From positions 193,069 to 257,068 of the forward strand of contig NW_006889834.1 in the NCBI RefSeq assembly GCF_000231115.1: a stretch of 64,000 nucleotides of DNA, given 5' to 3'. Origin of the DNA: Vittaforma corneae ATCC 50505 (lineage: Eukaryota; Microsporidia; Nosematidae). The notes beneath the pieces were generated by a model. It was given only the letters and a program-made list of their open reading frames with translations. It was not told where the DNA came from and did no database searches. A program made the translations under genes and the position numbers. Position 1 is the first letter of the stretch. Each line of letters starts with the position of its first letter. Shown here one piece after another: positions 1,850 through 57,582 of the stretch.

Positions 1850-2468
1850 ATGATTGACGATCCCGTTTCAACAGGAACAACAATCATGGCTCTGAGGTAC
1901 AGAGATGGGGTGCTGGTGGCTGCCGACAGTAGAACATCAAGTGGAGCATATGTAGTGTCCAGAATAACAAACAAGCTTCACCAGGTTTCCGAAAATATCA
2001 TCTTTTGCGTCAGTGGGTCAGCTGCAGACACACAAAGAATCAAGAGAATAGTGCAAAGCGAAGTTAACAAGCTTAGTCTGATTGAGAATAAACCGCCCTC
2101 GGTAGACAAAGCGGCAAACATGGTCAGCAAGATTATCTATGAGAACAAGGACAACATGACCGCAGCCATAATCATTGCTGGATTTGATACAACATCAAAG
2201 ATAAACAAGGTAGAACATCTGCGGAACCATTGAAACGGATTTAGACATTGTGATTGGAGGTAGTGGATCGGCGTTTATTACAGGATATTGTGAGGCGCAT
2301 TTCAAACCAAACATGGAGCTGAATGAGGCTATTGACTTTGCCAAAACGGCAATTGGGCTGGCTATTAGAGCCGATAGTGCATCAGGTGGTGTTATAAGAC
2401 TTGCAACCATTACGAAAGACAAAATAGCAAAGTATTTTGTTCCGGGGGACAGCATTTTAGCCAAATAA
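1850..2468 (+). CDS. PRE3: 20S proteasome subunit beta1 (Pre3/PSMB6), frame broken
   Basis: Catalytic beta1 (caspase-like) subunit of the 20S proteasome core. The start is set at 1850 because CTACCCCA precedes this ATG. That leaves a 9-residue propeptide ending VSTG, then the nucleophile Thr (TTIMA, Thr10 of the precursor). Seen motifs: DSRTSSGAYV, SGSAADTQ, ENKDNMTA and, after the break, GGSGSAF, GYC and SGGVIRL, all beta1 signatures. The frame runs into TGA at 2231. The rest continues in the +1 frame, and the shift must lie in 2211-2233. Conservation (a Gly-containing CGTI before the GSGS strand) favours a shift before about 2220. There is no A or T run in this zone, and no GT-AG intron restores the frame. 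Either a consensus error or a real frameshift. Confidence 0.9.
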
Positions 2469-2670
2469 ACAAGTGTTATTACTTGTAATTTCGAAATATG
2501 AATACGCATTATTCTTGTAATCTAAACCAACGGTATACTATTTTTGATAATTTAATGTGGATGGCTAAGAAATTGTGCAGATAACGCAAATGCTTAGTTA
2601 ATAAGGATCACATCTAATCTACTTTAATTTTCACTGTGGTGAATTATGCCCGTCTGGGATTTTGCTATCC

Positions 2671-3213
2671 CTAAAGCACCTCTTCGTTTTTATTATTTTC
2701 ATCAGCCAATTCATCCTCTTCGTAGTAATTGTGCTCATAATCATTTCCTGTCTCTAAACTACCGTGCTCAGAGCTATCATTGCAAACGCCATCATTGTTG
2801 TTGTCCTCATCACCCATATCATTAAAAATTACATTTGTATCTATTCCTGGGCATGTTTCGCGACTCCTCTGAAGTTCTGGACTCATGATTTCGATATTTA
2901 TGGTTTTTTGAATATCCTGTCTAGAAATAGCCGAAAGATACTTGTCTGTGTATCTTTCAATCTCTCTCGGTACGAAAGTGTTCAGAGAAAGAGACCTTAG
3001 TTCTTGTTTGATTTTGTTTTCCATTTGTATTTGTGCCTGCGGCTGTATTGGATAGTTGAAGTTTAGAAGATCGTCTTCGGTCATGTCTGTAAAAATTTTC
3101 AGGATTTGAGGAAATGCAAATCTTTTAAGAAGCAATGGGCCCGCAATTTTAAACGGCTTACGCCTGTGAAGCCCTTCAACAAGCACTAGAGATCTGTTAA
3201 TTGAAGTCAGCAT
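2671..3213 (-). CDS. Hypothetical protein with acidic C-terminal tail
   Basis: A 180-residue protein that I cannot assign. The first 100 residues are mixed hydrophobic and basic (HRRKPFKIAGPLLLKRF). The last 60 are strongly acidic and Asn-rich (clusters such as DEDNNND and YYEEDELADE), typical of nuclear or nucleolar chaperone-like tails. No CCC signal precedes the ATG. An upstream ATG, followed by one surplus T in a TTTT run, could extend the N-terminus by about a dozen residues, the same break pattern seen elsewhere, but there is no homology to support this. It lies convergent with PRE3 and divergent from GCN5. Confidence 0.7.
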   Translation of the reverse strand: MLTSINRSLVLVEGLHRRKPFKIAGPLLLKRFAFPQILKIFTDMTEDDLLNFNYPIQPQAQIQMENKIKQELRSLSLNTFVPREIERYTDKYLSAISRQDIQKTINIEIMSPELQRSRETCPGIDTNVIFNDMGDEDNNNDGVCNDSSEHGSLETGNDYEHNYYEEDELADENNKNEEVL

Positions 3214-3391
3214 TAAAGCAATCGGTGAAAATTAGATGGACTTGGTGCATTTTTACCGAAATGTCTATGTGCTAAATGTACTGTGAGAACACCGAGAAAG
3301 TAGCGCAAATGGGCTTTTGCACTTTGAAAACATTGGAGTGATATATTCATGCTTCTTCAATGTTTTTATCTTTCACAAAATTTTTGGCCGA

Positions 3392-4741
3392 ATGGATTTG
3401 TTCGATGAAAAAAATTTAGAAAAGCTCAACAAAGACAATGCAAAGTTCAAGGACTTCTCGAGTGGCAAGCTCAACATCCAAGTATTCAGCTCTGCAGACC
3501 CCGCAACATCCTACGACTCTCTCTTGCATGTTAAGTATCTCTTTCAGAGAATGCTTCCAAAAATGCCAAGAGATTACATTCTACGACAAGTGTTTGATGA
3601 AAACCAGCGCTGCATGACCTTAAACGAGAGAATAGAGGGCAAGGTTAATGTATTCAGAATTATCGGAGCCATTCTATTCAGACCATGCTTTGAGAGATGT
3701 CTAGTGGAAATTGTATTTCTAGCTGTTGATTCAGAATATCACGTAAGTGGATATGGCACATTTCTGTTCAACTGTTTTAAAGAAATTTGCAAGCTACAAT
3801 ATTCAGCATTTTTCAAGCTTGGAAGCCTGTTCCAAAGTAAGAACATAATTGTCACCGATCTGTCAATATTTGATCACTTAGATTCCATCGATATTTCTCA
3901 ACTAGAATTTCAAAATTCAGTTTCTGTTGAAAATAAATATGAAACGCACGAAGAAGTTAAAAGATTGAAGGTTTCCGACGATGCAACTCACCATCAACAT
4001 GATAATACCGACATATTGGCCAATATACAGGCCAATGATAGATACACAAACGATAAAAATCTTTATTTACTAACATATGCTGACAATTCAGCAATTGGGT
4101 TTTTCAAAAAACAGGGCTTCACGCTTCACCCAAGATCCACCCAGTGGGCTGGCTATGTCAAAGATTACGAGGGTGGAACATTAATGGAGTGCAAGGTTCA
4201 CAAAATGGTTAACTATTTGAGAAAAAGAGAGCTAGTAAAGCAAGCAAGAGACATAGTATTTGATAAGATGAGAAAAGTCAATGACTTTCATATTTTAAGA
4301 AAGAGCTCTGAAAGAGAAGAGATTAAAAAGCAAAGAGAAGCACATGCTCCAGATAGAACATGGGCAATGAGAACTAAAGAGGAGTTTCTATCCGACTTTT
4401 TGTATTTCATTGTTTGCTCGTTGCAAAGTCACCCGTCTTCCTGGCCTTTTCTTGAGCCAGTTTCTGAGAAAGATGTGCCCGATTATTTTGAGGTTATCAA
4501 GCATCCCATGGACTTGAGTCTGATTATGAGAAAACTAAAGGGCGGCATGTATTTTACGCTTAAGGATTTCGCACTAGATGTTTGTCTTATGTGCAATAAC
4601 TGCTTTTCATATAACGGGCCTGATACGCAGTATTACAAATGCGCTGAAAATATCAAGAAATACTTTGAAAGTCTAATTAAAAGCTATGCATCAGCCATTT
4701 TACACTGGGGATTTGATGTGGTGTTTGGTGATTTTAAATAA
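3392..4741 (+). CDS. GCN5: Histone acetyltransferase GCN5 with bromodomain
   Basis: Nuclear lysine acetyltransferase, catalytic subunit of SAGA-type complexes. With the start at 3392 it has 449 residues. The HAT domain begins at about residue 54 (LPKMPRDYI). The general base Glu is about E106 in VEIVFLAV. The acetyl-CoA loop is YHVSGYGT (about 116-123), followed by the strand and helix LYLLTYADNSAIGFFKKQGF and then YVKDYEGGTLMEC. A bromodomain occupies about 345-445 (WPFLEPV, VPDYFEVIKHPMDL, CNNCFSYN). Oddity: about 86 polar residues (137-222) are inserted between acetyl-CoA helix and the next strand, where yeast and human GCN5 have almost none. The inserted segment is in frame and not an obvious intron. 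The stop overlaps TAAATAAA. Confidence 0.95.
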   Translation: MDLFDEKNLEKLNKDNAKFKDFSSGKLNIQVFSSADPATSYDSLLHVKYLFQRMLPKMPRDYILRQVFDENQRCMTLNERIEGKVNVFRIIGAILFRPCFERCLVEIVFLAVDSEYHVSGYGTFLFNCFKEICKLQYSAFFKLGSLFQSKNIIVTDLSIFDHLDSIDISQLEFQNSVSVENKYETHEEVKRLKVSDDATHHQHDNTDILANIQANDRYTNDKNLYLLTYADNSAIGFFKKQGFTLHPRSTQWAGYVKDYEGGTLMECKVHKMVNYLRKRELVKQARDIVFDKMRKVNDFHILRKSSEREEIKKQREAHAPDRTWAMRTKEEFLSDFLYFIVCSLQSHPSSWPFLEPVSEKDVPDYFEVIKHPMDLSLIMRKLKGGMYFTLKDFALDVCLMCNNCFSYNGPDTQYYKCAENIKKYFESLIKSYASAILHWGFDVVFGDFK

Positions 4742-4886
4742 ATATTGTATTCTTTGTTTCTTCTGCCATCAGCTCATTAATATTTTGACTTTCTATGTGT
4801 TTGGACCCATCAGCAGACAAGCTTACTTCAGCATTGCTATGCTACCTAGCTAATCTCTTTTGTTGAGCTTCAATTCTACCCTTGCA

Positions 4887-6086
4887 ATGAGTCTGGAGAA
4901 ACTAAGAGAATTAGATCCAAACGTGGACAAAATGAGTTTGGAGGAAATATCAGAGCGAACCAAGATGATCAACAGTGAAATACGATTACTACAGAATGAA
5001 ATTAATAGTATCAAAAATGAGATTCACAACAAGTCTACAATGGTTGCAGAGAATATGTCTAAGATCAAGCTTAACAAAATTTTACCATTTTTGGTTGGGA
5101 ATGTTGTTGAGATTTTCGATAACCACAGTGGTGTTATTTTAACTTCAACCAGGCAGTATTCATATCTGTCAAACCTGGGGTTGGTTCCGACCGAAGATCT
5201 TTCAGCTGGAGACTCTGTTGCGCTTCACAAGGAGACTAACATTGTTTTTGAAAAGCTGCCACCCACATACGATAACAAGGTCTTAGCAATGGAATTGGAT
5301 GTAAAGCCAGATGAAACATATGAGGACATTGGTGGCTTGGACAGGCAAATTGAGGAGTTGAATGAGGCGATTGTGCTTCCGCTTATGTATCCGGAAAGAT
5401 TCAAAAGGCTGAATATTACACCGCCCAAAGGCGTGCTGATGTACGGGCCACCAGGCACAGGAAAGACTTTGATGGCTAGAGCATGTGCTGCGAAGACCAG
5501 TGCTTCTTTCCTCAAGCTGGCCGGGCCACAGCTTGTTCAAATGTACATTGGCGATGGTGCTAGACTTGTGAGGGATGCCTTTGCTCTTGCCAGATCTAAA
5601 AAGCCATGCATAATTTTTATTGACGAAATCGATGCTATCGGTATTAAGAGATCAGCATCAGATAAAACCGGTGACAGAGAAGTTCAGAGGACTATGCTTG
5701 AGTTACTGAATGAACTCGATGGATTCACTGTGCACGATGATATTAAAATTATTGCAGCAACCAATCGAGTAGATATTCTTGATCCAGCATTGCTTAGATC
5801 TGGGCGCTTGGATAGAAAAATAGAGTTTCCACTTCCAAATGTTGAAGGCAGAAAGCGGATTTTACAGATACATGCAAGAAAAATGACGGTGGGTCCCAAT
5901 GTTAATTTTGATGAGCTTGCAAGATCAACCGAGGGATTTAATGGTGCGCAGTGCAAGGCTGTATGCGTTGAGGCAGGTATGGCAGCTATCCGAAAGAGCA
6001 AGAATGAAATTGGGCACAATGAGTTTATCCAGGGAATATCTGAGGTCATGTCTAAGAAGAAGTCTAGTGTTGTATATTTCACTTAA
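4887..6086 (+). CDS. RPT5: 26S proteasome regulatory ATPase Rpt5
   Basis: AAA+ ATPase of the 19S base that unfolds substrates and opens the 20S gate. The start at 4887 (MSLEKL) is preceded by CTACCCTTGCA; an upstream in-frame codon at 4860 is not an ATG. The order is an N-terminal coiled coil (about 15-65), an OB fold, then the AAA domain with Walker A GPPGTGKT, Walker [12 protein letters not shown], sensor AATNRVD and arginine finger region [10 protein letters not shown]. The match to Rpt5 runs throughout ([23 protein letters not shown]-like NGAQCKAV). The C-terminus is VYFT, a variant of the HbYX gate-opening tail with Phe in the penultimate position. PRE3 and RPN7 of the same machine are also in this window. 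Confidence 0.96.
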
Positions 6087-6326
6087 TAAATCCATTTTAG
6101 AGACTGGTATTGTGTTTGTGACTTGTGGCTGCTTTGCATTTTGCAAAATCAGTTCTATACTAATGTTCTGATTCACTTTACTATAAATTCTTTTATGGCT
6201 GGCAAGCATATTGAAGCTGTTTTAGATATTTCAGCATGGTAATATTTGAATCTTTTTTACTGTTTTGAAAAATTGCATTGATCTGTTTCAGTTTTGATAA
6301 AAACAATCTCGACAACAAACAACATT

Positions 6327-7586
6327 ATGGGCAGTAAGACTAGGATACTGGTCTATGCTGGATTGGCACTACTCTCAATATACTTTACCTATGATCTCCC
6401 AGGTTCTTTAAATTTTGCACTCAACTTTGGGGCAGGAACTGATGAAACAAAAATCAGTCTTTTATACTCCTTCTACGCAATCCCAAACATCGTTTTGCCC
6501 TACTTCTTCAGCTATCTTGCGAGCTGCTCAAAACACGGACTACTGTGTTTGCTTTCAGTCTTTGTCCTATTGGGTCAGTTAACCTTCACCCTGGGAATAT
6601 ACCTAAATCAATTTTCAATAATGCTTATCGGACGCATGTTGCTAGGAATCGGAGGCGAGTCGTATTCTGTTGCACAAAATAAGATAATTATGGAGGAGTT
6701 TAAAATCAATGAATTGACAGGCATAATGGCGTTCTATAATTCATGTGGTAAAATTGGAACAATATTGACATTTCTGCTAACTCCTGTTATTGCTAGCTAT
6801 TTTGGTGCCTTGGCGGCTAGTGGGTTTGCATTGGTTTTGGTGTTTTTTGGTTGCTTTTCATCATACAACAGTTATGCCAGTTATAAGAAGATTGGACTGG
6901 TGCCAAGCCCTACTGAGTGTCCATCAATCGACGCAGAAGATGTTGTTGATGAAAATGTTGCTATGGTTCAATGGAGAAGTCCAGGAAGAGGAGCAAGTGG
7001 CTGGGTTTGCTGGCCGTTCAAGCTGTTAGTGTTCATTTGCTTTATTTTTGGATGTGTTTGGTCACCATTCTACAATATTGCACCGATGATGTTCCACAAA
7101 AGATATAAAATGGGTATAAACACTTCAAGCTATACTGTTGGCATTATTGAGGGCATTTCACTTGGGATTCTCTTCGCGGTTAGTCCAGTTGTAGGAAAAA
7201 TAGGAAACAAACTTAACCTTGTAGTCCTAGGCTGCTTAATATTGATTATCGCGCATTTAGACATCGTTCTTTGCAGTGTAAATCCGCTTCGAGCTATTTT
7301 ATTGCTAGGGATTGCCTCACCTCTTATATCATTTTATTGGTCATGTCTGCCCAGGCTCGTTCCTGAGAACAAGCTATCTTCTGCATTTGCCATACTTTTC
7401 TGTGCAACTAACCTTGCCTTTGTTATTTCACCATTGTGCGTGGCATTTCTTTCAATTAAAAACACAACGTACTTGTTGGTTGAAATTTATTTAATTATAC
7501 TTTCGTGCATGTCTTTGATCGCCCTGCTGATATTACTTTTCTTCAACGGTAAATACGATCTGAAATTGAATGATGTAATAGGTTGA
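6327..7586 (+). CDS. Major facilitator transporter, MFSD1-like
   Basis: A polytopic carrier with about 12 predicted membrane helices in 419 residues. The stretch GRMLLGIGGESYSVAQNK resembles the fourth to fifth helix signature of MFSD1, a lysosomal dipeptide exporter family, and the N-terminal YFTYDLPGSLN also fits. A hydrophilic central loop (about 190-230, ECPSIDAEDVVDE) separates the two halves. The substrate is unknown; dipeptide or amino-acid exchange is inferred from family membership only. I set the start at the ATG at 6327, because the frame opens with a non-ATG codon at 6294. No CCC signal is present. Import carriers of this kind suit an obligate intracellular parasite. Confidence 0.85.
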   Translation: MGSKTRILVYAGLALLSIYFTYDLPGSLNFALNFGAGTDETKISLLYSFYAIPNIVLPYFFSYLASCSKHGLLCLLSVFVLLGQLTFTLGIYLNQFSIMLIGRMLLGIGGESYSVAQNKIIMEEFKINELTGIMAFYNSCGKIGTILTFLLTPVIASYFGALAASGFALVLVFFGCFSSYNSYASYKKIGLVPSPTECPSIDAEDVVDENVAMVQWRSPGRGASGWVCWPFKLLVFICFIFGCVWSPFYNIAPMMFHKRYKMGINTSSYTVGIIEGISLGILFAVSPVVGKIGNKLNLVVLGCLILIIAHLDIVLCSVNPLRAILLLGIASPLISFYWSCLPRLVPENKLSSAFAILFCATNLAFVISPLCVAFLSIKNTTYLLVEIYLIILSCMSLIALLILLFFNGKYDLKLNDVIG

Positions 7587-7739
7587 TGTGGGAGCAAAAA
7601 ATTGAAGTTGTTCAATGAAAATGCCAAACATAGTTAAGTTTTAGATACTGGTGCAATCTTACAGTCAACACAGACTTTAAAACTAGGCTCGAAATATCAT
7701 CAGCCAGCTGCATCCAAGGTATAAAATTTTTATTGAAAA

Positions 7740-9506: not shown

Positions 9507-9834
9507 TTAGGGGCTTGAAACAAGGAGTTAGAAAATGAGATGATTGGAGTAATGCGGAATTCCATTGGCTAATAATGACAATATAAGACAAATAGGAGTA
9601 AACTTGCTGTACTCTGTGGGTACTGCACAGGTAGATGCAGGAGACTATAAGAATTAGTAATAAACAATGCTATTCTAGTAGACTTTCGTTGCTAATTCAC
9701 ATTTGTTTGTATTTTAGAGATACCCATGCTTATATAACAAATAAATAACGTTATAAGTACAATCAAGCATTTAAACAGATTTTGGAAGTGTACATGCTCC
9801 AAACAAACGTGTCGAGTATATTATGTCTTGCGAT

Positions 9835-12856: not shown

Positions 12857-12961
12857 CATAATAAAACTGTTTACTTTAAGTTGTTACCCAAACGGTTATG
12901 TTATATGTTTTTATTATCGATGATATATTCTGTCAGCTATCACTAAATGCATAAATGCTTA

Positions 12962-15629
12962 TTACTCAATATATAGGCTTGGCAAAAATACAATACCCCG
13001 TCGCATGCATGTGCTTGCTTGTGAGAATTTTTCGCTAATTTTGGTGTCACCAATGATATCGCCAACATTAATCATTTCTCTGCAGCACTCATCCAATCGA
13101 AGGAGTAGCCTGACAAATGAGCCTTCTTGAATACAATGCTTAGTAACAATGCTCCCAAGACTTAATCCAGAACACCAGTCATAGACAGCCTGTATATAGC
13201 TCAAATTGAGTTCTTGGAATTTGGGTATGTTCATTTCAGCCAAGTCTTTACCAAGAATGTCGTGATATTTTTGCAATATATTTGCTTTTGCCTCGAGTTC
13301 TGGAGATATTTCATATTCTTCCGGCTGATCTTCGTTTAGCATTGAGCTGAATAGTGCAATAGTCTCGCTCGGCGAAAAAGACTCAAACTCATTGTTGAAT
13401 ATGAGCTCGGTGACAAGAACATCATTTACAGTCCTAATTTCAGCAGCAACTCGGCCTTTGAGTGTTATTGAATCCGACAGGAACGAGTGTTTCTTCAAAA
13501 ATGATATTCTGGCAGTATATTCATTCATCAAAGCCAAGCTTTCCCTGGAATACCTACTCCTTATAGAATTGATCTCATCCCTGGTCTGCTTTGAGCGTAT
13601 AGCTTCAAAGTAATGTGTTTCGGAGTTTCTGCACTCAAGGAATTTGCATTTCAGCATGCTTTCAAAGCGGGATCTTAGCTCAGAAATCTTACAAATATAC
13701 TTTATATCAGTTTCAGTGAAGTCAAAAGAAATAGGCAGTGCCTCTAACATAAAATACAACATCGTCAAATGTCGCCGCACCATTCTTGATGTAGTTTCTG
13801 TACCAGATGGGGTATTTCAGGATAAGGTCTGAACCTGCTGCCTCGGACGACTCAATTATTTCCCTAGTTAAGGGTATTGAGAACAGATTTTTACAATCTA
13901 TATTAATATCTGAATTTGAAAACATAAATTCATGTTTAGACATAGAATTAATGGTCACAACAGCATTGTTTTTAAGAACAACTGTATCTCCGACTTTAAT
14001 AATGTTTTTGAGAACAGAGGGTAGTTCTCTTGATATGATTTCCAGATTAGAGAAATATTCAAGATAATCTCTGCACTGCTCACAATCAACATCTGGAGTA
14101 GATTCAAGAACAGCAAGCCTTGCCATATCGGTTTTTAACGTTCTCTGAGATCCATGCTCTTTGAAACTACTCTTCATCAATTCCTCTACCTCAATGTTTG
14201 TCATAATAGCTGTCAATATTAGCGAAAAACTCAATCTAAATTTCGAGTTTAGATCTGCTGGAATGCCATTAATTACTTTTTTGATTGTAGAAATGTCAGA
14301 CACTCTTTGGTCAGCAATTAAAACAGTCCCAACTTTGTCCATTCCTCTTCTTCCTGCTCGACCACTCATTTGAATGAACTCACCAGCATTTAGATATCTA
14401 AAAACGCCGTTGTCAATTTTTGTGAGGCTTAGAAATGCACAGCATTTGGCAGGCATATTAACACCCATGGCAAATGTCTCTGTTGCAACCAGTATTTTAA
14501 TCAGATTTTCGGAAAACAGTATTTCAACGCATTCTTTAACAAAGGGAAGCAGGGCGCCGTGATGAATTGCAACGCCACGATATACTTGGTCTCTCATGGA
14601 TCTGATCTGAGGAAGATCTCTATCTTCGTCTCTTAGGCTGCCCATTGCATTTTCCAAAAACTTCAATATGCATTCCTTTTCATCTGGAGTTGTCAGATCT
14701 AATAGCTGCAGTGATCTGCCATACCCCACACATGCTTTTTTCGAAAATGTGAAGAAAATGGCAGGGACAAGACCCTTGTTATTTACAAAGTTTCCCAGAT
14801 CGTTGATTCGGAATCTATTTGCTGCTTTTATATTCTTGTTAAACACCGGCAAAGCTGTTTGGAAATTTGAGAGCTGATTCTCGGCCTTCTTGGATTTTGG
14901 GTCATCGATTGAAAAGACACTCGCGTCACAATAGATGGCAAATTCGAGGGGAACGGCTCTCTTGTTAGTTGAAATAACGTAGATACAGCGGTTCTTTGTT
15001 CTTCCTACCCACTCTGCAAACTCCAATGAATTTGGAATGGTTGCACTCAGCATTACGAAGGAAATGTGATGCGGAAGCATTATAATACATTCTTCCCAAA
15101 CAACACCCCTTTCTGCATCATTAATGTAGTGAACCTCGTCAAACACTACATACTCAGTGTTGGCTAGAATCTCGGAGTTTTTGTATACTAGATTTCTGAG
15201 AATTTCTGTCGTCATAATCAGGCAGCTGGCACTCGGATTAACTTGCACGTCCCCCGTAATCAACCCCACATCAGGAAACCTTTGTTTAAAATCAAAAAAT
15301 TTTTGGTTGCTTAAGGCTTTAATAGGCGATGTATATATTACACGATTCGAGCTTTTAAGACTCAGCCCAATAGCATATTCTGCAACTAGCGTTTTTCCAG
15401 AGCTAGTGTGTGCTGACACAAATACAGATTCTTTTTTTGAGAGAAAATAGAATGCTTGTTTTTGGAAAATATCTGGTTTGAAGTTTATATTGAGAACGGA
15501 CTCATCAACAACTGCGTCGTAGTCGCCAGGCTCCCAGTCTTGCCGTGTCCCAAATACATGTCTTTCCAATTTCAAGTTTTTTAGCATTCTGCTTGGTTCC
15601 GAAATTGGCGATTCAAATTTTTGGTCCAT
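12962..15629 (-). CDS. SKI2: SKI2-type RNA helicase, frame broken
   Basis: DExH RNA helicase that feeds RNA to the cytoplasmic exosome. The start at 15629 directly follows GTACCC. The first frame (15629-13722) carries AHTSSGKT (motif I), TSPIKALSNQKF, FDEVHY (motif II), LSATIPN (III), FAMGVNMPA and QMSGRAGRRG (VI). The order and the RQDWEPGD lead-in favour Ski2 over Mtr4. That frame ends at TGA 13722. The second frame (13783-12962) supplies the DSHCT domain (LKGRVAAEI, VYDWCSGLSLGSI, RRGIVFLPSLY), which the helicase needs. The two overlap and join by a +1 shift anywhere in 13722-13816; one surplus T in a TTTT run would do it. The joined length of about 880 residues is short for Ski2. Confidence 0.93.
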
Positions 15630-32193: not shown

Positions 32194-34294
32194 ATGGCAC
32201 AGCAAATAGAAGAATATTTGGAAATTGAGTCTGAATGTGCTCAGGAACTAAAGATATTATACAAGTATTCGAAAACTTCATGAGAAATATTCGTTGGATG
32301 ATATAGAATGGTTTTACAGATGCTTTGCTTGCCGTTTTGTAGATTTTGGTTTTCAGAAGTGTATGGTGGTTGAGATATTCTACAGATGCGAGGAACTTAT
32401 GAGTTTTGTTGATGATAGACTGTTTCTGGATGTTATTTCCAACTGGTTTGTTCTGAGAAATGGGCTTTTGTTGTGCTTCCAGTCATCAAAATTGGCTTTG
32501 CCGGATTACTTAAGTAGCTTGAATAGAAACTCGACAGTCGAATATACGTTTTTGATTGAAAGAAGCAGACGGGTAGTCGATTTTGTAAACCAGGGCCGGA
32601 TTTTTCCGTTTATGACAGACTGCCGTCTAGACGAAATCAAACTAAGCAAGAGCACGTTTAGGTATCTCATTTGCAGAAGAGTTGATATTCCTTCACTAAT
32701 GGCCTACTGCGATCTTTCAAACGAGGAAGTTCAACTAATTGCTGAAAAAATAGTAAACGATCAAGGGTTTCGGAATGGTTGTAGGAAATTCATCGAGGAT
32801 CAGGGCATATTAAGTAGCACTATGCTGATTATTGCATCCCTATGTAATGCCAAAGCAGAGTTAAGAAATAGCGTCTCCCCTAGCATTCATAAGTACTACT
32901 GTGGGAAGCATTTTGATAGTATCTACATGCCATTTTCTGCTTTTTATCCTATTCTTGAATTATCACAGTTAGAGGTATATTTTCTGTATTTATTTCACAA
33001 ATCTGATATTAAGCATGACCTTGAAGACATTGTCGAGTCGCTCAAGACTAACAATACGATTTGTGAAATGCCAAATTCCAGCACGATACTCGAGCCAAGC
33101 TTTTTTTCAATAGATTGCAGACTACCAGCGACTATAAAAGAGCGATCAACGCAAGCACAGATCTTAGACTTGGTGCTGAGTAAAGGCTATTCGATTGGGT
33201 ATGATCCCGATATTTATAAATATTTGCCTGAGTTACAAAATGAGACGTATTTTCAGAGTGTTTGTAAAAAGTTTGCCAGGGAGATAATTGAGGATGAAAT
33301 TTTTGATCCGTTACCTGTATTTTTGAAGGACATATCCCCTGTGCTTGATTATTTAAGATTAAAAGTGTCTGATGAAAGTAGATATGGGAATACTAACACT
33401 GGTGCGAAGGACACGAGAGCGGATTTCTCCTCTCAGCACAATAGCTTTGTGTGTAGCCTTGATACGTTGCATACGTCTGTCCTTCTATCAAGCTCAGAGT
33501 TCTCATCTGAAAAGCCCAAGTATCATGATGCTCTTGAAAATCGTAGTGAGATTGATGCTGCGCTTCCACTTTTGTACTTCAGAGAATGCGAGTGGTTAGA
33601 CGATGACGAAAGGTTGGTTTTGCTAGAATATTACATGGCTAAGCTTGACATTAATGTTGTTGTAGACAATTTTCTATGCACAAAGAATCCTTCAGCTAAA
33701 ACAGTGCTATATTTTACAAATAATATACAGAACATCGACGATAAACTGCTCAGAGCCAGGGTGTGTTGTAAGCTTTCTATTCCGTTCAATTCACATGATC
33801 TTTCTGAAGCAGATATCAAATTTATTGTTGATATGTCTGACGATGTATTCCAGCTCAGACAGTACATGTACTCCAACAAGATCTCCAAAACATGCATTGC
33901 AAAGTTTATATCGAAGCTTACAGCAGAACAAACAGATGTCATGTTGAGTGAAATAGATTGTGTTGGTGCAAATCCAGATTTTCTTGCTGCTTTTATAACC
34001 CACATTACATCACAGTATGAGTTTTCATATATTTGCAATTTGCTATCAAAACTTCTTGACCTGAAGGTAGCAGAAATAGTTAAGAAAATTCAGAAATACC
34101 TTATTAGGCTATTCAATGGTTTGTTTGTTCAAGAAGATTACATTCCTCTGGCCGAGAGTTTGTATTCAAGGATGCTTGGATTTGAGGATTGTGAAATCAA
34201 AAGCAACAACGACAAAATATTAATTTTAATTGGCAGTGCAGCCAAGATGATGAAAAAGGAGCCATTCATTGGCAATTTAAAAGCAAATGAATAA
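32194..34294 (+). CDS. Large helical protein of unknown function, frame broken near the start
   Basis: About 695 residues if joined. The long frame from 32294 has no ATG near its start, but an ATG at 32194 with CCC 7 bases upstream opens 29 codons (MAQQIEEYLEIESE onward) to TGA at 32281. The +1 frame is open from 32252, so one surplus A in the AAAA run at 32272-32275 would make a continuous helix (KYS then KLHEKYSLDD). The rest is helical and Leu/Ser/Asp-rich with a polar linker near residues 390-440, and has no motif I recognise. It is followed by XPF on the same strand. Confidence 0.75.
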
Positions 34295-36939: not shown

Positions 36940-38224
36940 ATGAAAAACAAAACATCAGATTTGGCAAGTAATGAGGAATGCAGGAAAGTATGGGAAATAT
37001 CTGATGCCCAGGCTACTATAAACCATGGCTATTCCCTAGAATTAATTGATCCAAATTGTATCATGCGAGTTAATAGCTGCTTTGTCGAAGAGCTAACTCT
37101 TGATGATGTTTCCTTGAAATCTCAGCATGAAAACATCTGCAACAAGGATGCTTTGAACTGTAAGAACACGATGAAACTTAGCAACATACAGTCTGTGGAA
37201 CTTGAAAATGCCATAGAAAGTGCAGAGGGCAAGGGGGGCAAATTTGTGATGCCTAGGAGTATGGCAAGTCCATTCAGATCGCCAATAACACCGAATGTTG
37301 CAAATTTAAAAGTAAGAATTGAAGATAGGGTTTCTTCTAAATTGTTAAAAGCTGAAGAAAAGAGCATTAGAATGCTTGATGCAAATGTTGCAGCAGCAAG
37401 TTACATCAAAAACAGCTCTGACATTGATATGGATAACGGCCACATGGCTAGACAAAAAAGACGTTCATCTGTTGCTGCAGAGATTAGGATCAAAAGGCAG
37501 ATCGAAGAAGACACCAAGGCTTCAAAAAACGACGATTTCGTAAAATCTCCATTTGAACTGATGTTTTGTGGAATTTCCAAACCTAAAAAGTTGCCACTTA
37601 AAATACAAAGCGAAGCCTCAATTTTCGATATTTTCAACATTAGAGCATCTATTTTACAAGACAGGACAAATTCCCCAAGAAAATCTGGTGTCTTTAAGCA
37701 CAAGTGCATTTCAGATGAGGATAAGATGCTCAATTCCAGGTTCTTTCTAAACGAAGATCCATCCATAGAAGCTAGCAGGCAAGATTGTGCTGAATCAGTT
37801 GGTGAAAATCAGTCTATACTGGAGCACAATGACACTTTTGAGTGACATTTCGGAATATCTTCCAGACAAAAATTACTATAAATTAAAGGAAACGAACACA
37901 AAACTAAATGAAGGATATACGACTATTGAGCCAAAGCGGAAAGCCATCATTGAAATTTCCAATTGCCCCAAATCGTTTTTTAGAAAAAACAATCGACCAC
38001 GGCGGGTTTGCTTCTGCACTGACGCTTCAAATGTTGTGCATAATCCTGGTGGCACAATCAATCCAATTATTGAAAAATCCGCCACGGTCGAGCCTAGCTT
38101 TGAGTGGAGTGGCGAAAAACAAGTCGTAGAAATTGTCAAAAGAATTGATTTGTGGCCGGAGATGTCCCAAGATGATTATGTTTGCAGACCAATAGACAAA
38201 AAGCTGAATCTTGAAAATTCATAA
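36940..38224 (+). CDS. Polar low-complexity protein of unknown function, frame broken
   Basis: The first frame (301 residues) ends at TGA 37843; the overlapping +1 frame continues to 38224. The second frame has no CCC before any ATG in the overlap, so one gene of about 427 residues is likelier than two. A TTTT run at 37836-37839 or an AAAA run at 37805-37808 could carry the surplus base. The protein is disordered, Ser/Asn/Lys-rich, with SP/TP sites (RSPITP, NSPRK) and basic patches (RQKRRSSVAAEIRIKRQ). The C-terminal part has PRRVCFC, which fits the RVxF docking motif for protein phosphatase 1. It may be a nuclear or cell-cycle regulator; this is inference only. Confidence 0.65.
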
Positions 38225-45630: not shown

Positions 45631-45640
45631 ACCCCTTTAC

Positions 45641-47968: not shown

Positions 47969-48249
47969 GTTTCAAGCCCCAGGTAAATGTCATACATTGA
48001 GCGTCGATTACAATTGTGGCTTATTTTGCCAATAAAGCTTGAATTTGTTCATTTGGCCTCTTTTTCTCATGTGTGACGAACAAAATCCGATACCAAGCGA
48101 GGACGAAATTTGTAGCTCTCTGAAGAAGCAGCTGAAGGACGATGTAGAGTTCTGGAAGAGTGGCAGCGGACACAGCATTTACAATACTGGAAGGGGCTTC
48201 TTTACTTTTGAATAAATCGTTTGTTTTAATTGCATTTGTCTTGCCGCCC

Positions 48250-49041
48250 ATGGCTAAGGCTGATACGATAAAAAATGTATGGAGAGACAATTTGGAGGAG
48301 GAAATGGCAAACATAAGACATCTGATTGAGAAGTACAACTATGTGGCCATGGACACTGAATTTCCCGGTGTTGTGGCCAAGCCGTTAGGCAGTTTCAAGA
48401 GCCAATCGTCATTTGCATACCAGCAATTAAGATTCAACGTTGACATGCTGAGCATAATTCAACTGGGAATATCCCTGAGTGACGAGAATGGAAAGAGGCC
48501 TGAACCAACACACACTTGGCAGTTCAACTTTAATTTTAATCTGGATACAGACATGTACTCACAGGAATCAATCGAACTACTGATACAAGCAAAGATCAAT
48601 TTCAAAGACCATTCAAGAAACGGCATTGATGTCAAAGAGTTTGGGTCTTTACTAACAACCAGTGGACTAGTGATGTCGGACCACATTATTTGGGTATCGT
48701 TTCATTCCGCATATGATTTTGCATACTTGATCAAGATTTTGACAGGAAACGCAATGTCAGAGAAAGAAGAGGACTTTCACAAGTACATGGGCGTGCTGTT
48801 TCCAAACTTCTACGATTTTAAGTTTCTGCTATCGTCTACTGAGCATTCAAGAAAGGGACTGCAGGAAATAGCAAATGACCTAGGTGTTTCGAGAGAAGGA
48901 ACAGCACACCAGGCAGGAAGTGATGCGCTGCTGACATCGATGGCATTTTTCAAGTCCTTCGAAACAGTCCTGCTCCGAGACAGCCTAAAAAGTTCAATCT
49001 CCAAGCTTTTTGGAATCGAGTATGTCACAGATAGCATATAA
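48250..49041 (+). CDS. POP2: CCR4-NOT deadenylase Caf1/Pop2
   Basis: DEDD 3'-5' exoribonuclease that shortens mRNA poly(A) tails. TGCCGCCC abuts the ATG at 48250. 263 residues with the four catalytic positions seen as VAMDTEFPGV (Asp, Glu), SFHSAYDFAYL (Asp) and HQAGSDALLT (His, Asp). The N-terminal IKNVWRDNLEEEMANIRHLIEKY and LQEIANDLGVSR are family blocks. Full length for the core domain without the yeast Gln-rich extension. Confidence 0.96.
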   Translation: MAKADTIKNVWRDNLEEEMANIRHLIEKYNYVAMDTEFPGVVAKPLGSFKSQSSFAYQQLRFNVDMLSIIQLGISLSDENGKRPEPTHTWQFNFNFNLDTDMYSQESIELLIQAKINFKDHSRNGIDVKEFGSLLTTSGLVMSDHIIWVSFHSAYDFAYLIKILTGNAMSEKEEDFHKYMGVLFPNFYDFKFLLSSTEHSRKGLQEIANDLGVSREGTAHQAGSDALLTSMAFFKSFETVLLRDSLKSSISKLFGIEYVTDSI

Positions 49042-49241: not shown

Positions 49242-50043
49242 TTAATTATCTTCAACCTCTACCTGCTGATTGGCAGCATACTTGTTGTTACTGATCTCAA
49301 ATGCATTCAAGCGGATGCCATCGTTCTCATCCATTGAGATCAGAAGGCTGTTGCTCTCTCCAATTACCATGACCTTATCCATGGACACACTGAAGGGTTT
49401 CTCTCTAGGGTCCTGGAGGAATGCAATCTCTTTTCCATCTGGTGAACGGTCGATATACTTGATGGTTCCAATTCTGCCAGCATTAGGCCCAGAAAAAACA
49501 TAGCCTATCTTTCCAGCCTCGAATGGAAGATGCCCAACAATCCTATTGGTGGCAATGTCAATCTTGACGGTATCATTAATCTTGATAGAAGGATCAGCAA
49601 ACTTAAAGTTGTATCCATCTTTTGTATGAGTCATGGGAATTGAATCGTTAGTATATTTAGAAACAACCTTAGATATTCTAACCTTTGCCTCGTCAGAGCT
49701 GATTTTGTGAAGCTTAAACTTCCTGTTGGCATTGAAGTAGAGTCTGAAGTGCTGGTTAGTCTTCAGAATTGTCACAACATCGAAAAGACCAACCGGAAAC
49801 TTAATAGAAGTAATCTCCTTTCCATTGACAGCTATCATCCTTGAGGATGCGATATAATCAACCTCTTTAGCCGTATTGGCTACTCTGAGAAAACGAGCAA
49901 TCACATATTTCAAAGGAATCGAAAGCTCTTTGCTGTGTGGCCCTGGAAGTGGCCTAATTGCATACTTTTCCACTTTTTTTGTCCAAACCCCACTGGGTCG
50001 GTGCTGCAAGTCTTTTTAAATGATGGTGTGCTCCACAGGGCAT
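49242..50043 (-). CDS. RPS4: Small subunit ribosomal protein eS4, frame broken near the N-terminus
   Basis: 40S protein eS4. The long frame (50009-49242) has no ATG start and lacks the family N-terminus. That N-terminus is found in the -1 frame: ATG at 50043, with CCCTCAGAGC before it, reads MPCGAHHHLKRLAAPTQWGLDKK and matches the eS4 opening HLKRL-x-AP-x-xW-x-LDK. The two frames join by one surplus base in the T7 run (49974-49980) or the T4 run (49966-49969) of the plus strand. The join must precede KYAIRPLPGPH, because the aromatic-Ala pair there is conserved. KOW (GKIGYVFSGPNAGRIGTIK) and S4 domain follow. An essential gene, so either a consensus error or a tolerated frameshift. Confidence 0.95.
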
Positions 50044-50053
50044 GCTCTGAGGG
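50044..50053 (-). promoter_or_regulatory. CCC start signal of eS4
   Basis: Reading on the minus strand, CCCTCAGAGC directly precedes the ATG at 50043. It supports this upstream ATG over the ATG-less start of the long frame at 50009. Confidence 0.65.
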
Positions 50054-50364
50054 ATAAGCTGAGGCAAAAATTTTCAGTAAAATTTTTCACATCAACAAAG
50101 CAAGTGAATATATTGAAGTATGGGCATTTACTAATCGATATAAGGGTGTTGTGAGAATGCTTGTGCCGTTCCACCATTCGTCTTCTGCAGATGCTAAGTA
50201 CTCGTCTGTCTGTCTCGTACTTTATTTTTATCTAATCAGTGCAGCCATTTCAAGCCAAGTGCAATAGCTATCCCACTTGGAGCTTTAATAGATTGCATCG
50301 GTGTCTCTGTTTTCTATCTTTCTATGTCTCTATTTGGAATCTCAAATACGCTTTCCCTTGTCAA

Positions 50365-51621: not shown

Positions 51622-51838
51622 ATTTGTTGAGATAGAGCCGTCTTTTTGATTACAGATATGGCACTGTCCGTTGTCTTCGTCAGGCAATGGTGGGATTGTG
51701 CAGTCGCCCATAACAGCGAGTATATAAATTATCCATGCAGATGTGAGACTAGTGATAGAAGAAGGCTACTTTATCTCGGCATTTATGAATAAACACCGGC
51801 GTGTTTGGTCTTATTTATTGAACATTATTGTGCCCTCA

Positions 51839-53662
51839 ATGGATCAGGACAAACAAGAATCCAGAAGAAGAGTTTCCTTTGCCGCTGAGCCTCAGATAAA
51901 TTACATATATCAGAAAGAAAACAACACGTCTATGACTAGTTCATGCAGTATGGATATGGCCATGGATATTACTACAGAGCTGGCAGAGTTCAAGAACTTG
52001 AATTTGTTTTCAAAGGACTATAGTGCGAATGCAGAAGATGTGTGTGATGTGGAAAACATGCTTGAAATAAAGGAAAATGAAAGCAATGGTCTATCAAAGA
52101 GAGTGAGCTTGGATCCTTTAAAGGCTATCGAGCACGAATCGTTTTCTGAAAGTAGCACCACTGCTGCTAACCTGGGAAATAGCAGCACAGCTATACAAAA
52201 TGTGCAGGATAAGATCGACGATGCCGAGCATCCAACAAAAGAAGTCGAAGCAAAGAGTCCAGATGCCAAATCAAAAGATCAGACACAGTCTATTTTCTGG
52301 AGATCTTCCATCAAAGATGAACACAGAAAAAGTCTGAATGTTTCTTTTGATGATACAGGCGCGATTAACAGTTCATTTGGTGTTGAAGAATTGGTCAACA
52401 CGATTGATTTGAGGAAAATTATCCCGCAGGAATGGCAAGCGAAGACGAGCATTGGTGAGTTTCTTGCTTCACAGGGAATCAGGTTTCTTGATGAAACCGT
52501 TATGGGGGCCATGAAAAGAGACACGCTTTCTAAGTCCAGGAATGTCGTCGATCCCTCGCTAGTGCTCTACTACAAATACTCATTATCCGAGAGAATTGAG
52601 TTTTTGTATCAGTTCTCAGGCTTCTTAATTGATAAAATGAAAGATCTTCAAAAGGAAATTGAGGAGGTTGAATCCGGCATTGATGTGAGCGGCATAAACA
52701 AAGACAATTTGAAGAGAATACGAAATGAAGCACGAAATAAATCTAAGATTGACTGGTACAGCTTAAGAAAGATCTACGAGATTCAGTTTAATAAGAAAAT
52801 GATTGAAAACAAAAGTAAGATTGTGGATCTATTAAACGATGTAAAGAGGCAGAACATGAAGACTGTGGAGACTATTTATTTGAAGGAGCAGAGTGTCAAT
52901 AGCTTAAGATCAAAGATATCCGAGTTGAAAGAAAAGGTTTCAAGGTTCGAGAAGGAGAATGTTCAAAAAACCGAGAAATTGCAGGCGATGATTGAGGAGA
53001 AAAAGAAGGTATATGAATCGGCCCAAAACGATTTTGAAACAATTCTACAGTCGTATGAGACACAGAAAAAGGAGGAATGCATGATCCAGAAGAGGATCGA
53101 TAGGCTACACCAAGAAATATCAAGCCTGAAAAAGAACATTGCTATTAAGAATGTGGGCGAAAGCCAGCTGGACGAAGTCAAACGGCAGTTGGAGAGGTAC
53201 GGCTCTATATATCATTTTAAGATTATAAAAATTAGCAAGCATGCAGTACTATTTGAAGTTGCCGGTAACGTCGTTTCTGTCGAAGTTAACAGTCTGTCTG
53301 AGGTAGTTGAATTTTCATTTGTAAAAAGCGATGGAGATCCGTTTAGTGAGTTTTCAAGATCGCTCATTCAAAATTCATGCTGCAGAAAGCTCGTTGACTT
53401 TATAAGAACGTGTCTTGAAAATTTCTATCTCTGCTTTTCACTAAGAAAGGAAGTCAATGCCATAAAAGAAAAAGCTAAGGTAGAATGCTTCTATTTAAAT
53501 TCCTGTTTGTACTTTAGAATTTACCCACCAGACTCGAAGGTGCTACTTGACATGTCAATCACAGACGAATTTGATTTGATTTACAACGAGAGAATATGTC
53601 ACAACCTTAAACTATCACCAGGATCTCTGAGCTTGTTTATATCAGAAAAATTGATTAAATAA
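51839..53662 (+). CDS. SPC105: Kinetochore scaffold KNL1/Spc105/Spc7
   Basis: Outer-kinetochore scaffold linking microtubule attachment to the spindle checkpoint. The start at 51839 follows TGTGCCCTCA, giving 607 residues. RRRVSFA places the protein phosphatase 1 docking RVSF at 11-14, and MAMDIT (40-45) is a single MELT-like Bub-recruiting motif. The Spc7-type block IGEFLASQGIRFLDETVMGAMKRDTL follows at about 210-235. A long coiled coil (about 290-470) leads to a C-terminal tandem RWD-like region (YHFKIIKISKHAVLFEVAGNVVSVEV onward). Family members in yeast and animals are much longer and have many MELT repeats, so this is a reduced form. Confidence 0.88.
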   Translation: MDQDKQESRRRVSFAAEPQINYIYQKENNTSMTSSCSMDMAMDITTELAEFKNLNLFSKDYSANAEDVCDVENMLEIKENESNGLSKRVSLDPLKAIEHESFSESSTTAANLGNSSTAIQNVQDKIDDAEHPTKEVEAKSPDAKSKDQTQSIFWRSSIKDEHRKSLNVSFDDTGAINSSFGVEELVNTIDLRKIIPQEWQAKTSIGEFLASQGIRFLDETVMGAMKRDTLSKSRNVVDPSLVLYYKYSLSERIEFLYQFSGFLIDKMKDLQKEIEEVESGIDVSGINKDNLKRIRNEARNKSKIDWYSLRKIYEIQFNKKMIENKSKIVDLLNDVKRQNMKTVETIYLKEQSVNSLRSKISELKEKVSRFEKENVQKTEKLQAMIEEKKKVYESAQNDFETILQSYETQKKEECMIQKRIDRLHQEISSLKKNIAIKNVGESQLDEVKRQLERYGSIYHFKIIKISKHAVLFEVAGNVVSVEVNSLSEVVEFSFVKSDGDPFSEFSRSLIQNSCCRKLVDFIRTCLENFYLCFSLRKEVNAIKEKAKVECFYLNSCLYFRIYPPDSKVLLDMSITDEFDLIYNERICHNLKLSPGSLSLFISEKLIK

Positions 53663-53798
53663 TGTCCTTCATCTAAGTTAAAGTATGTTGACAGTCACGG
53701 CATTGCGTAATTTTAGTAGAATGCACATGCCTTATAATGCTAGTAAGCATGGACAGGCCTTACTCGACACAATTTCACGGCATAATCGGGCATGCCGT

Positions 53799-55505
53799 TT
53801 ATTGGCACTTCTCGTTCATAAATTCTCTAAAAGCCTTACTTTTTCTATAAATTTCATCGAACCTTCCATACTCTTCTACCTTTCCATCCTTTAAAAAAGC
53901 CACCTTTTCAAAGTATTTGACAAGTTCTTTCTGGTGAATGATCATCAGAATGGTTTTGTTTGTAATCTCTTTTAGCACATGCTTGATGAAGTAATCTTCG
54001 TACTTTTTGTCGACTGTTGACGTGGCCTCATCAAGTACCAAGATTGGTGAATTTTTGACAAAGGCTCTGAGTATGCAGATTTTCTTCTTTTGGCCTGCAC
54101 TTAGGTTGGATCCATTAAATCCAGAATGCGTATTATATCCATTCTTCAGACTCACAATCTCCGAATGAATTCCGAGCAAAGTTGCCATGCAAGTAATCTC
54201 GTCAATTCTTGAATGCTTGCTGCCCATTCTAACATTGTCCAAAATAGTTGCATCAGAGATATAGTCATCTTGCGAAACATAGGCAATAAGATCAAATAGT
54301 GAGCTGTTAGAAATACTGTTGATGGATTGGCCGTCGATGGTAATTTCTCCATCATAGCTTGAAAATCGCAAAAGAGTTTTGAGGAAGGTGCTTTTTCCTG
54401 TTCCATTTCTTCCCACCACTGCAATCTTATCATTCTTCTGAATTTTCAGATTAATGTTTTCTAATATTAACGTTTTGTCTTGGTAAATGTTGATGGACTT
54501 AAAGCATATACAGTTGCTAAAGACAAGCGTCTTTCTTGTTTTCGTTTCAACTGGAACATCGAATATTTCCTCAATGCCGTTCAAGGATATGGCAAGACTT
54601 GATATTAAATCAGACGCTTGTTTTAGAAGTGCATTTAAACTTTTAAAAACCATGAAAATGACTGACAAGTTCACAGCTTCGGTTGAGAAAGCAAGACTTA
54701 CTAGCAAAATGGCGGCAACGAATGGAAGCTCTGAGAAGCTCTCAACCAAGAGGTTTCTCTTCTCTCCCTCAAGCTTCATTCTAAAATAATCCTTTCGTTG
54801 CTTGGATGTTTTTACGTAAAGCTCACCAGACTGCTTCTCTTCAATCCCGTATGCTTTGATCAATTCAAAATTCTGTATTTTGTCGTACAAAATCGACGAA
54901 TTTCCCACTTTTTCATTTAAATATGATGTATGAAATTTAAGAATTGGCTTTAGCTTTATGATGCTTATCAGCAGATACGCCACAGGATATATGAGGGTAA
55001 GAAAGTACAGCAATGGTTGATTGCTGCTGCGGATCTTAATGAATGAAAAGACAATAAACATCATAATTGAAACTAACTTAAATGCGAGCATTTCAAAAAG
55101 TGATTTGTAAACTACAAGCTTCGCATGTATGTTTGTAATTATTTCGCCAGAGTCTGACCTGACGATATCCTTATATTCTACGCTCATTGCATCTTTCAGA
55201 AACCTGACCATTAAATCTCTTATTGACTTTTCGGAAAAATACCCAAAAAACATCTTGCATAGACATCTGAAAAGGATGCCCACTGCCGCATGGGCTATAT
55301 ACCGATAAATCAACGATGGTCTATTGGTTGCATCACCTATTTTTATGATATTTCTCAGCAATTCAAGTGATGTAAGGTAGAATAGCGTGGAGAGAACATT
55401 GAATATAAAGCTGAGAGCCATTCCAACAGATTTATAGTATCTGTTTTCACAAACAAATGCTGCAAGCACCTCCTTCAATAGGTCTTTAACATTTGCCAAT
55501 TTCAT
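53799..55505 (-). CDS. ABC half-transporter, ATM1/ABCB-like
   Basis: A 568-residue exporter half with one membrane domain (five to six helices, about 25-290) and one nucleotide-binding domain. Walker A is VGRNGTGKST, the signature is NLSAGQKKK (LSAGQ instead of LSGGQ), Walker B ILVLDEATS, followed by the H-loop IIHQ. It must dimerise. Atm1 of mitosomes, which exports a sulfur compound for cytosolic Fe-S assembly, has this half-size layout, but there is no obvious targeting presequence and several related copies occur in microsporidia, so the substrate is open. Confidence 0.85.
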   Translation of the reverse strand: MKLANVKDLLKEVLAAFVCENRYYKSVGMALSFIFNVLSTLFYLTSLELLRNIIKIGDATNRPSLIYRYIAHAAVGILFRCLCKMFFGYFSEKSIRDLMVRFLKDAMSVEYKDIVRSDSGEIITNIHAKLVVYKSLFEMLAFKLVSIMMFIVFSFIKIRSSNQPLLYFLTLIYPVAYLLISIIKLKPILKFHTSYLNEKVGNSSILYDKIQNFELIKAYGIEEKQSGELYVKTSKQRKDYFRMKLEGEKRNLLVESFSELPFVAAILLVSLAFSTEAVNLSVIFMVFKSLNALLKQASDLISSLAISLNGIEEIFDVPVETKTRKTLVFSNCICFKSINIYQDKTLILENINLKIQKNDKIAVVGRNGTGKSTFLKTLLRFSSYDGEITIDGQSINSISNSSLFDLIAYVSQDDYISDATILDNVRMGSKHSRIDEITCMATLLGIHSEIVSLKNGYNTHSGFNGSNLSAGQKKKICILRAFVKNSPILVLDEATSTVDKKYEDYFIKHVLKEITNKTILMIIHQKELVKYFEKVAFLKDGKVEEYGRFDEIYRKSKAFREFMNEKCQ

Positions 55506-55631
55506 TTAAGGAGTCTGTCTCAGAATTATCAAAAACCACATGGGCCAATCAAATATTGTCTAAACATATAGTAGTGCGCAAATGCTAATACCACGAGCCT
55601 AACACTTTAAAAGTACGTTGAAACTTCGCAT

Positions 55632-57582
55632 TTATTCCCGTCGCACAATCTGATAATCGTCGGTGACAACATAGTCGTTTTCATTTATTACCAATCTTAA
55701 CTGTGACCTGTCACATTTCTCAAACCATATTCCCATAATGGACTTCACAAGATCATTATTAACATAAATAGAACAATCCCGTAGTGTACTTGGAAGCCTA
55801 AATGATTCTTTTAGTTGCACGCAATCTGGCTCTTCAGATTCTGAAGTATACTTGCCGACATCAACCGAATCGAGCTGCTTCAAATCGAGGTGTAATACTT
55901 CCAGGCCGCTGATTTCGGAAATCTCATAAGGCAGTTTCATGAATCCCGTGCATTCATCAATCACCAAGCATTTCAATGATTTTGTAGTTTTCAAACCCAT
56001 ACAAATAGAATGCATATTAAGAAGATCACATTTGAAAAAGCCCAAGTTCTCGATACTTTGAACTTCTTGCAGATCAATAGATTCGAATGATGACATGATC
56101 AGGTTCAGATTTTTTAAAGCATGGACAGTTTGCAAGCTTAATGATTTCAAATGACAACTCTCCAAGAAAACATCAAGCAGGCTGGATACGTCTTGCAGAG
56201 TTGCCGATGTTAGCAAACAATCCTTTAAAAGAAGTTTATGAAGCATCGACATCTTTCGAAAAGCCAGCGACTCCAACACAGAACTATACAGCTCGAAATT
56301 CTGCAATGCGGCCATTTCGCATAGATCAATTGATTTTGACCAACCAGAATTCTCTGCTGTGGGAAATCCTGTATTAGATGCCTGTGCCAGTGCGATGGTC
56401 TTTTCATCAAGAAGAATAGTCATTTTCTCTCAAACTTCTCAGTTGACTTAGTTTCTTGAAATCTTCTGTGTCAAATAGTAACTTTTTAGATTGTATTTTG
56501 AGTACCTCAATATTTTTGTGATCAAGGATCCAGTTCATATTATGCCCTCCAAGATCAACTATGTTTTCGTTTGAGATTTCAACCCAAACAAGCTTTTCAG
56601 GATTGGAGAATTTCAACTCAATGTCTCCCGACAGTTCAGCCATTTTCAAATACTTTATGTTTTTCATAAAACCTGCCCTTCTCTTCAACGCGCCCAGCAC
56701 GTCATTTGTCAAGATTGCAAGAAGAATCCCGGTGTTGTCAATTATATGCTCCTTGTTTGGAGCACCACATCTAATAGAAAACTGCTGTAGAATGGCGATA
56801 AACCTGAAAAACCGTACCATCATAACAACCCTTTTATTAACTTCATAGCTAGTTAAAAACGCCACACAGTTTATCCACTGGGCAGAAGGATTCCTTGTGA
56901 TATCCGAATCGTCAAACTCAAAGACCACTCTTTGGAAATAGTTTGTATTTTTTAGTACTATCTTTGCAAAGAGAATCGAAGGTGACTGTGGATCGCTTTG
57001 AAATGCAAGATCCATCAACATGATTAAATGCAAGGATGATTGAGCAGCGTTTCTCCTAGATTTCTCAATCTCAAACAGATAGTTTCTACACATGCTAAAG
57101 ACAAAGCCATCGTAAATACCTAGCTTTTCAAAAAAACTCTTGAGGTTCAAAACTGAGCTGGGAAAATATGACTGTTGCATGCAGAAATCAAAGAACTGCT
57201 GATCATCAAGCCTCAAAAGAATCTCATTTAGCTTCAAAATGTCGGCTGCAAACTCATGAATATTTTGAGTTTCATTGATGGTTTTGAACACGTCACAGTA
57301 CTGGACTCCATTGAAAAGCAACATGCCTGTAATCTCAGACACGGCACTGTCAGGTAGCTTAGGAAATTCAGTATTCAGTTCTGTTTGTTCTTCAATATCA
57401 GAGTCCTCAATAGTGGTATATTGAGTGTTTTCATCACTATCTGCATCATGGCTTTGAATGCACTGTTCTGTATCTGGATTTGCTTCATTGATGGGATCAA
57501 GAAGCATGACTTCCATAGATATGATTAGCCTGTAGATTATTTTGCATATCTTTCTCTCTCGTGCAATATTCATTAACATCAT
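55632..57582 (-). CDS. Leucine-rich repeat protein, frame broken
   Basis: The first frame (57582-56407, 391 residues) has an acidic disordered N-terminus (about 25-75), a helical body, then the start of an LRR region (IKYLKMAEL, IEVLKIQSKKL, LSQLRSLRE). It ends at TGA 56407. The second frame (56423-55632) continues with more repeats (LHKLLLKDCLL, LKSLSLQTV, LKNLNLIMS, LEVLHLDLK) and has no CCC before its ATG. Both join by a +1 shift; the run AAAA (TTTT at 56423-56426 on plus) sits in the overlap. The joined protein has about 650 residues. LRR proteins of this kind are abundant in microsporidia; function unknown. Confidence 0.78.

Follow-up and report, generated by a model that had tools for sequence, protein, structure and literature searches.

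Single-base frame breaks in conserved genes of Vittaforma corneae ATCC 50505 run in both directions and most likely reflect errors of the draft consensus

The 454 draft of Nosema ceranae contains adjacent open reading frames (ORFs) that its authors joined, in 58 cases, on the assumption of a single-base assembly error (PMC2685015). In Euplotes, programmed frameshifting moves the reading frame by +1 in many genes of a single eukaryote (PMC5009743). Rescue of broken genes by transcriptional slippage is a third system of comparison; slippage in general is treated in PMC5009743. Here we analyse such breaks in strain ATCC 50505 of Vittaforma corneae, a microsporidian that infects people (PMC9960886). 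The genome comprises 2.90 Mb in 35 contigs, and the window, meaning the whole stretch of 64,000 bases under analysis, covers bases 193069-257068 of contig C1 (361,874 bases). It holds six ORF pairs with a frame change: PRE3, SKI2, eS4, a leucine-rich repeat (LRR) gene, and two genes named after their start positions, 32194 and 36940. The breaks in the window are very probably single-base insertion or deletion errors in the draft consensus.

As in N. ceranae, neighbouring ORFs of V. corneae match two parts of one conserved protein, one base apart, across the genome. The N. ceranae authors marked their 58 joins as errors, whereas no such list for V. corneae turned up in the literature searches made. 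The likeness to Euplotes lies in +1 frame changes that affect many genes of a single eukaryote; unlike there, the breaks of V. corneae are of both signs and no narrowed window junction lies at a stop. Several breaks sit at A runs, as in slippage rescue, but the runs of V. corneae are mostly short and PRE3 has none.

In all six pairs the first frame reads to a stop and the ORF in the +1 frame opens ahead of that stop. A break is given as '+' where the second frame is +1 (surplus base) and as '-' where it is of the -1 type (missing base). The pieces are as follows.

1850..2233, plus strand: PRE3 (proteasome beta-1), first frame; PF00227 positions 1-117, E 4.5e-27; best PDB matches are beta-1 chains
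2214..2468, plus strand: PRE3, second frame (+1), C-terminal; PF00227 positions 134-189, E 3.6e-11; overlap zone 2214-2233
13722..15629, minus strand: SKI2 helicase, first frame; DEAD and Helicase_C; best PDB match yeast SKI2
12962..13816, minus strand: SKI2, second frame (+1); DSHCT, E 3.5e-42; overlap zone 13722-13816
32194..32283, plus strand: 32194 gene, N-terminal piece; aligns, by eye, with the beginning of homologues P0002-P0005
32252..34294, plus strand: 32194 gene, main part (+1); homologues P0002-P0005; overlap zone 32252-32283
36940..37845, plus strand: first ORF of the 36940 pair; break unproven, the ORF itself its sole match
37769..38224, plus strand: +1-frame ORF after 36940; ATG 14 bases before the stop of the first ORF
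49954..50073, minus strand: eS4, N-terminal piece; weak alignment to eS4 residues 3-26/27, best E 0.0037
49242..50015, minus strand: eS4, second frame (+1); eS4 chain of 6rm3, E 2.7e-57; overlap zone 49954-50015
56407..57582, minus strand: LRR gene, first frame; 52% identity to residues 1-380 of P0008
55632..56429, minus strand: LRR gene, continuation in the +1 frame; 39% identical to residues 379-695 of P0008, the alignment having 68 gap positions; overlap zone 56407-56429

Both sides of the break are backed by homology in five of the six pairs (PRE3, SKI2, eS4, 32194 and LRR), and all five are +1. Judged by sequence comparison, the stretch behind the break keeps strong homology in each of these five genes. 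The initial annotation had counted six broken genes, with family homology on both sides in PRE3, SKI2 and eS4, and had placed the second frame at +1 throughout; the ORF frames agree in all six pairs, the homology in those three genes was confirmed and 32194 and LRR could be added to them, while the break in 36940 stays unproven. For SKI2, DEAD, Helicase_C and DSHCT are domains that occur together in one protein. Across 98-99% of the query, the main part of 32194 is 35-45% identical to four unbroken homologues (P0002-P0005, including GINT2_001025 of Glugoides intestinalis), all of which read straight through the break site. For the short N-terminal piece of eS4, every one of the 53 PDB sequences listed at E <= 10 is an S4e protein matched near its N-terminus.

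The LRR gene has an unbroken paralogue in the same genome: P0008, which is VICG_01197 of V. corneae ATCC 50505, matches C9:108798-110882 with 100% identity over its whole length. P0009 gives the same two-piece picture, and both proteins are unbroken at the site, which rules out a reading of the LRR gene as two genes. The gene belongs to a small family that, besides the unbroken copy at C9:108798-110882, has other copies or pieces at C1:325503-327338 and C1:329044-329739; one source labels P0008 as F-box domain-containing. In the case of 36940, the homologue search returned only 36940 itself and Pfam gave nothing for either piece. The join was preferred by the coding model described below, which cannot represent overlapping genes. 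Because homologues and Pfam matches are lacking and an ATG lies 14 bases before the stop, this pair may be two overlapping genes.

Outside the window, homology supports 13 further breaks, 5 '+' and 8 '-'. Six of them come from a coding model, 6 of whose 18 calls outside the window (at a penalty of -14) have Pfam matches of one gene on both sides; in the MutS-like gene and CPSF100 the two sides carry different domains that share one protein. The other 12 calls, which were one-sided, matchless or incompletely tested (Pfam was given 30 of 34 distinct pieces), were left uncounted. The other seven come from family searches of the whole genome, with the sign read from the frames of the matches, and all seven were given the same sign by the coding model on freshly fetched loci.

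MutS-like gene, C1:11062: '-', model call with Pfam on both sides
TLC nucleotide transporter: '-', model call with Pfam on both sides
MLH1, C1:25662: '+', model call with Pfam on both sides
CPSF100: '+', model call with Pfam on both sides
Proteasome alpha subunit: '-', model call with Pfam on both sides
Enolase, C17:43312-44543 (L021): '-', model call with Pfam on both sides
CCT gene, C3: '+', whole-genome family search
Class I tRNA synthetase, C21: '+', whole-genome family search
Kinase, C4: '-', whole-genome family search
Kinase, C2: '-', whole-genome family search
HSP70, C21: '-', whole-genome family search
HSP70, C1:311422-313212: '-', then '+', whole-genome family search

In the HSP70 gene at C1:311422-313212 the '+' lies 215 bases past the '-' and cancels the frame change. 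A '-' break in a glycerol-3-phosphate dehydrogenase-like gene (C1:99759) looked real by eye and had a one-sided match, and locus L036 has a second '-' model call well beyond its first, on the reversed strand at base 2051 of the locus; neither was counted. One more unproven coding-model call falls at the N-terminus of enolase. An ORF pair that resembles reverse transcriptase by eye, with a '-' model call, lies at L026:8605-9998 (C8) and stands outside the homology tallies.

Together with the window, the homology-backed breaks number 18, of which 10 are '+' and 8 '-' (binomial P = 0.81). The initial annotation had stressed that none of its genes needed -1 and had named -1 breaks elsewhere as what would remove the directional bias. 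Inside the window its observation stands; elsewhere, 8 of 13 homology-backed breaks are of the -1 type, and direction bias as a genome-wide feature is ruled out by the presence of both signs. Consensus errors are favoured because other parts of the assembly hold breaks of both signs. The pattern is best explained by insertions and deletions that entered the draft consensus at random, with some preference for short runs. The genes would then most likely be continuous in the organism, the breaks having presumably been produced by the reads or the consensus caller and not by the cell, and the all-plus window would be a chance effect of the small sample, which drew attention by its one-sidedness.

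Programmed +1 ribosomal frameshifting in many genes, of the kind used by Euplotes or of the antizyme or Ty kind, would agree with the five proven window breaks all being +1, with core genes being hit and with the conservation of the parts behind the break. As a sole mechanism it is contradicted by the -1 type of 8 of the 18 homology-backed breaks, and it is insufficient because eight -1 breaks are left unexplained. The site is also not kept in relatives, which were compared for 32194 and LRR: P0002-P0005 and P0008 and P0009, respectively, are unbroken. The junction codons of the four window breaks that could be narrowed (PRE3, 32194, eS4 and LRR) differ, none being a stop and no codon pair being common to them. 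Among the outside junctions, those of MLH1 ('+') and the C2 kinase ('-') were placed to the codon, by eye, and may break directly at the first-frame stop codon, as a stop-associated shift would; a stop at such a place is expected by chance in some out-of-frame readings. We regard programmed frameshifting as extremely improbable.

Homology narrowed the break to a few bases, placed by eye, in PRE3, 32194, eS4 and LRR. The run at the junction is A4 in 32194 and LRR and A4 or A7 in eS4, while the junction of PRE3 is without any run of at least three. Since three of the four narrowed breaks touch an A4 run, against a frequency of 0.123 for a random coding point to fall within or border on a run of at least 4, some link of the breaks to short runs is likely. 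For whole overlap zones, an A/T run of at least 4 in at least five of six zones has P = 0.19 among same-length zones drawn from N-free long ORFs, and enrichment at this level was rejected as no better than chance. Thus the A/T runs that the initial annotation had noted in five zones lie near chance as zones and retain weight only at the narrowed positions. Its plain explanation, one-sided over-calling of homopolymers, holds as to consensus errors and fails as to one-sidedness (10 '+' and 8 '-') and as to PRE3, which has no run. The run census and the first run and zone figures included frames over blocks of N; the zone and point figures were recomputed N-free. Such blocks lie at window 61891-62574 (684 bases), C8:10001-13605 (3605 bases) and C1:23783-23802 (20 bases), with single N at C1:47666 and C9:6793; they may be assembly gaps or withheld stretches.

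The runs also bear on transcript slippage at homopolymers, by which the frame would be mended in the mRNA so that real genomic breaks would be harmless. Slippage could correct breaks of either sign, and it would suit the contact of three of the four narrowed window breaks with A4 as well as the longest runs near junctions, A7 at the eS4 break and A6 in the CCT and MLH1 zones. Slippage that rescues frames needs longer runs, however: no long homopolymer was seen at the narrowed window breaks and most runs are too short, PRE3 has none, and several '-' breaks outside the window sit at runs of 1-4 bases (by eye). A/T runs of exactly 4 are also very common, with 2,654 in long open frames in the census that included frames over N blocks. 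Rescue by slippage is accordingly highly unlikely. The initial annotation had raised programmed +1 frameshifting or transcript slippage as an alternative; neither finds support.

Small introns at the breaks were considered because eS4 breaks near its start, and introns of microsporidia are frequently situated close to the 5' end of ribosomal protein genes. The second eS4 piece aligns from chain residue 20-22 onward, and the two pieces overlap at residues 22-27 of chain 6zu5. Room for an intron was checked in eS4, LRR and 32194, and it does not fit in these genes because their pieces abut without spare residues (22-27 in eS4, 380/379 in LRR, by eye in 32194). The probability of introns is practically negligible.

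The frequency of breaks was assessed with seven family searches, in which 8 of 77 conserved genes were broken, PRE3 included. The 77 are our own count of listed matches with matches of the same gene merged; an incomplete TCP1-like match on C18 and, on C13, a synthetase match below the cut-off were left out.

Proteasome: 2 of 14 broken
CCT: 1 of 6 broken
Class I synthetases: 1 of 4 broken
Class II synthetases: 0 of 3 broken
HSP70: 2 of 4 broken, with three breaks
Kinases: 2 of 27 broken
AAA: 0 of 19 broken, in a weak search (131-residue domain, 20 of 35 candidates scored)

Kinase breaks have possibly been missed, because several kinase matches span only part of the domain. The broken genes include core ones (proteasome, CCT, HSP70, eS4), so that breaks appear blind to gene importance. 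According to PMC9960886, the NCBI set for ATCC 50505 has 2,034 hypothetical proteins, 207 of which bear the label fragmented or partial without a stated reason; this count is of a size similar to that of the breaks recorded here.

True recent insertions and deletions in a mutator strain would find a possible cause in the breaks of the MutS-like gene (C1:11062, '-') and MLH1 (C1:25662, '+'). With a break rate near 10%, two broken repair genes are unsurprising, and both breaks are most likely errors. The mutations would have hit core genes too, among the 8 of 77 conserved genes, which selection should prevent; purifying selection should not let breaks persist in a tenth of the core genes. A mutator strain is therefore very unlikely. 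It is likewise very doubtful that the breaks are real and tolerated, which would take either frame-restoring slippage in both directions where runs are very short, or a lineage deficient in mismatch repair, its MutS-like gene and MLH1 both being broken, with fresh insertions and deletions in about a tenth of its genes.

The coding model that underlies these counts is a period-3 model with symmetric frameshift transitions, applied to the window and 200 kb from ten contigs. Tested on synthetic sequence, it recovered 146 of 150 insertions and 147 of 150 deletions and made no calls in 150 intact genes, all benchmark breaks lying at least 300 bases away from gene ends. Overlapping genes cannot be represented and tend to yield false '-' calls; because real overlapping genes can thus mimic '-' breaks, the tallies above were restricted to homology on both sides. 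In the window, at a penalty of -14, it made 5 '+' and no '-' calls (PRE3, SKI2, LRR, 36940 and 48214). Two of the five proven breaks, 32194 and eS4, escaped it; both have short upstream pieces. Outside the window it made 18 calls (5 '+', 13 '-'), giving 23 calls in all, 10 '+' and 13 '-', over 208.8 kb of coding sequence, or roughly one call every 9 kb; the majority of these calls lack two-sided homology. The '+' and '-' counts vary with the penalty chosen: 5 and 0 in the window and 7 and 14 outside at -10, 4 and 0 and 1 and 9 at -18, and 2 and 0 and 0 and 4 at -22. The 48214 call lies ahead of a gene that resembles CAF1/POP2 (named by eye); it lacks homology and was not counted. At 48035-49041 the model joined an ORF of 59 aa to an extension upstream of that gene (by eye), which probably reflects coincidence or a small gene of its own. 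The window proteins are recorded on a contig of 368,097 bases, against 361,874 for C1, indicating another version or a differently trimmed record.

Several points weigh against consensus errors as the cause. The window (5 '+', 0 '-') differs from the outside (5 '+', 8 '-') with a Fisher P of 0.036; this contrast was examined post hoc and does not outweigh the total of 10 against 8. Many breaks lie at short runs or at none, unlike the run errors expected of classical pyrosequencing. No document naming the sequencing platform of the V. corneae assembly was found, PMC3879972 and PMC9960886 included, so that the technical cause is inferred. Finally, the coding-model counts are rough, because two of the five proven window breaks were missed.

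The finding is most likely an assembly artefact and not new biology. Should the breaks be genuine after all, frame correction on a wide scale would, to our knowledge, be new for a microsporidian. With 8 of the 77 conserved genes scanned, or roughly a tenth, interrupted by a one-base frame break, most likely an error, the result is above all a practical warning. Studies of the presence or absence of glycolysis, mismatch repair, the proteasome or chaperones that rely on predicted proteins may misread such errors as loss or truncation, and the '-' break in enolase should not count as decay in studies of glycolysis loss.
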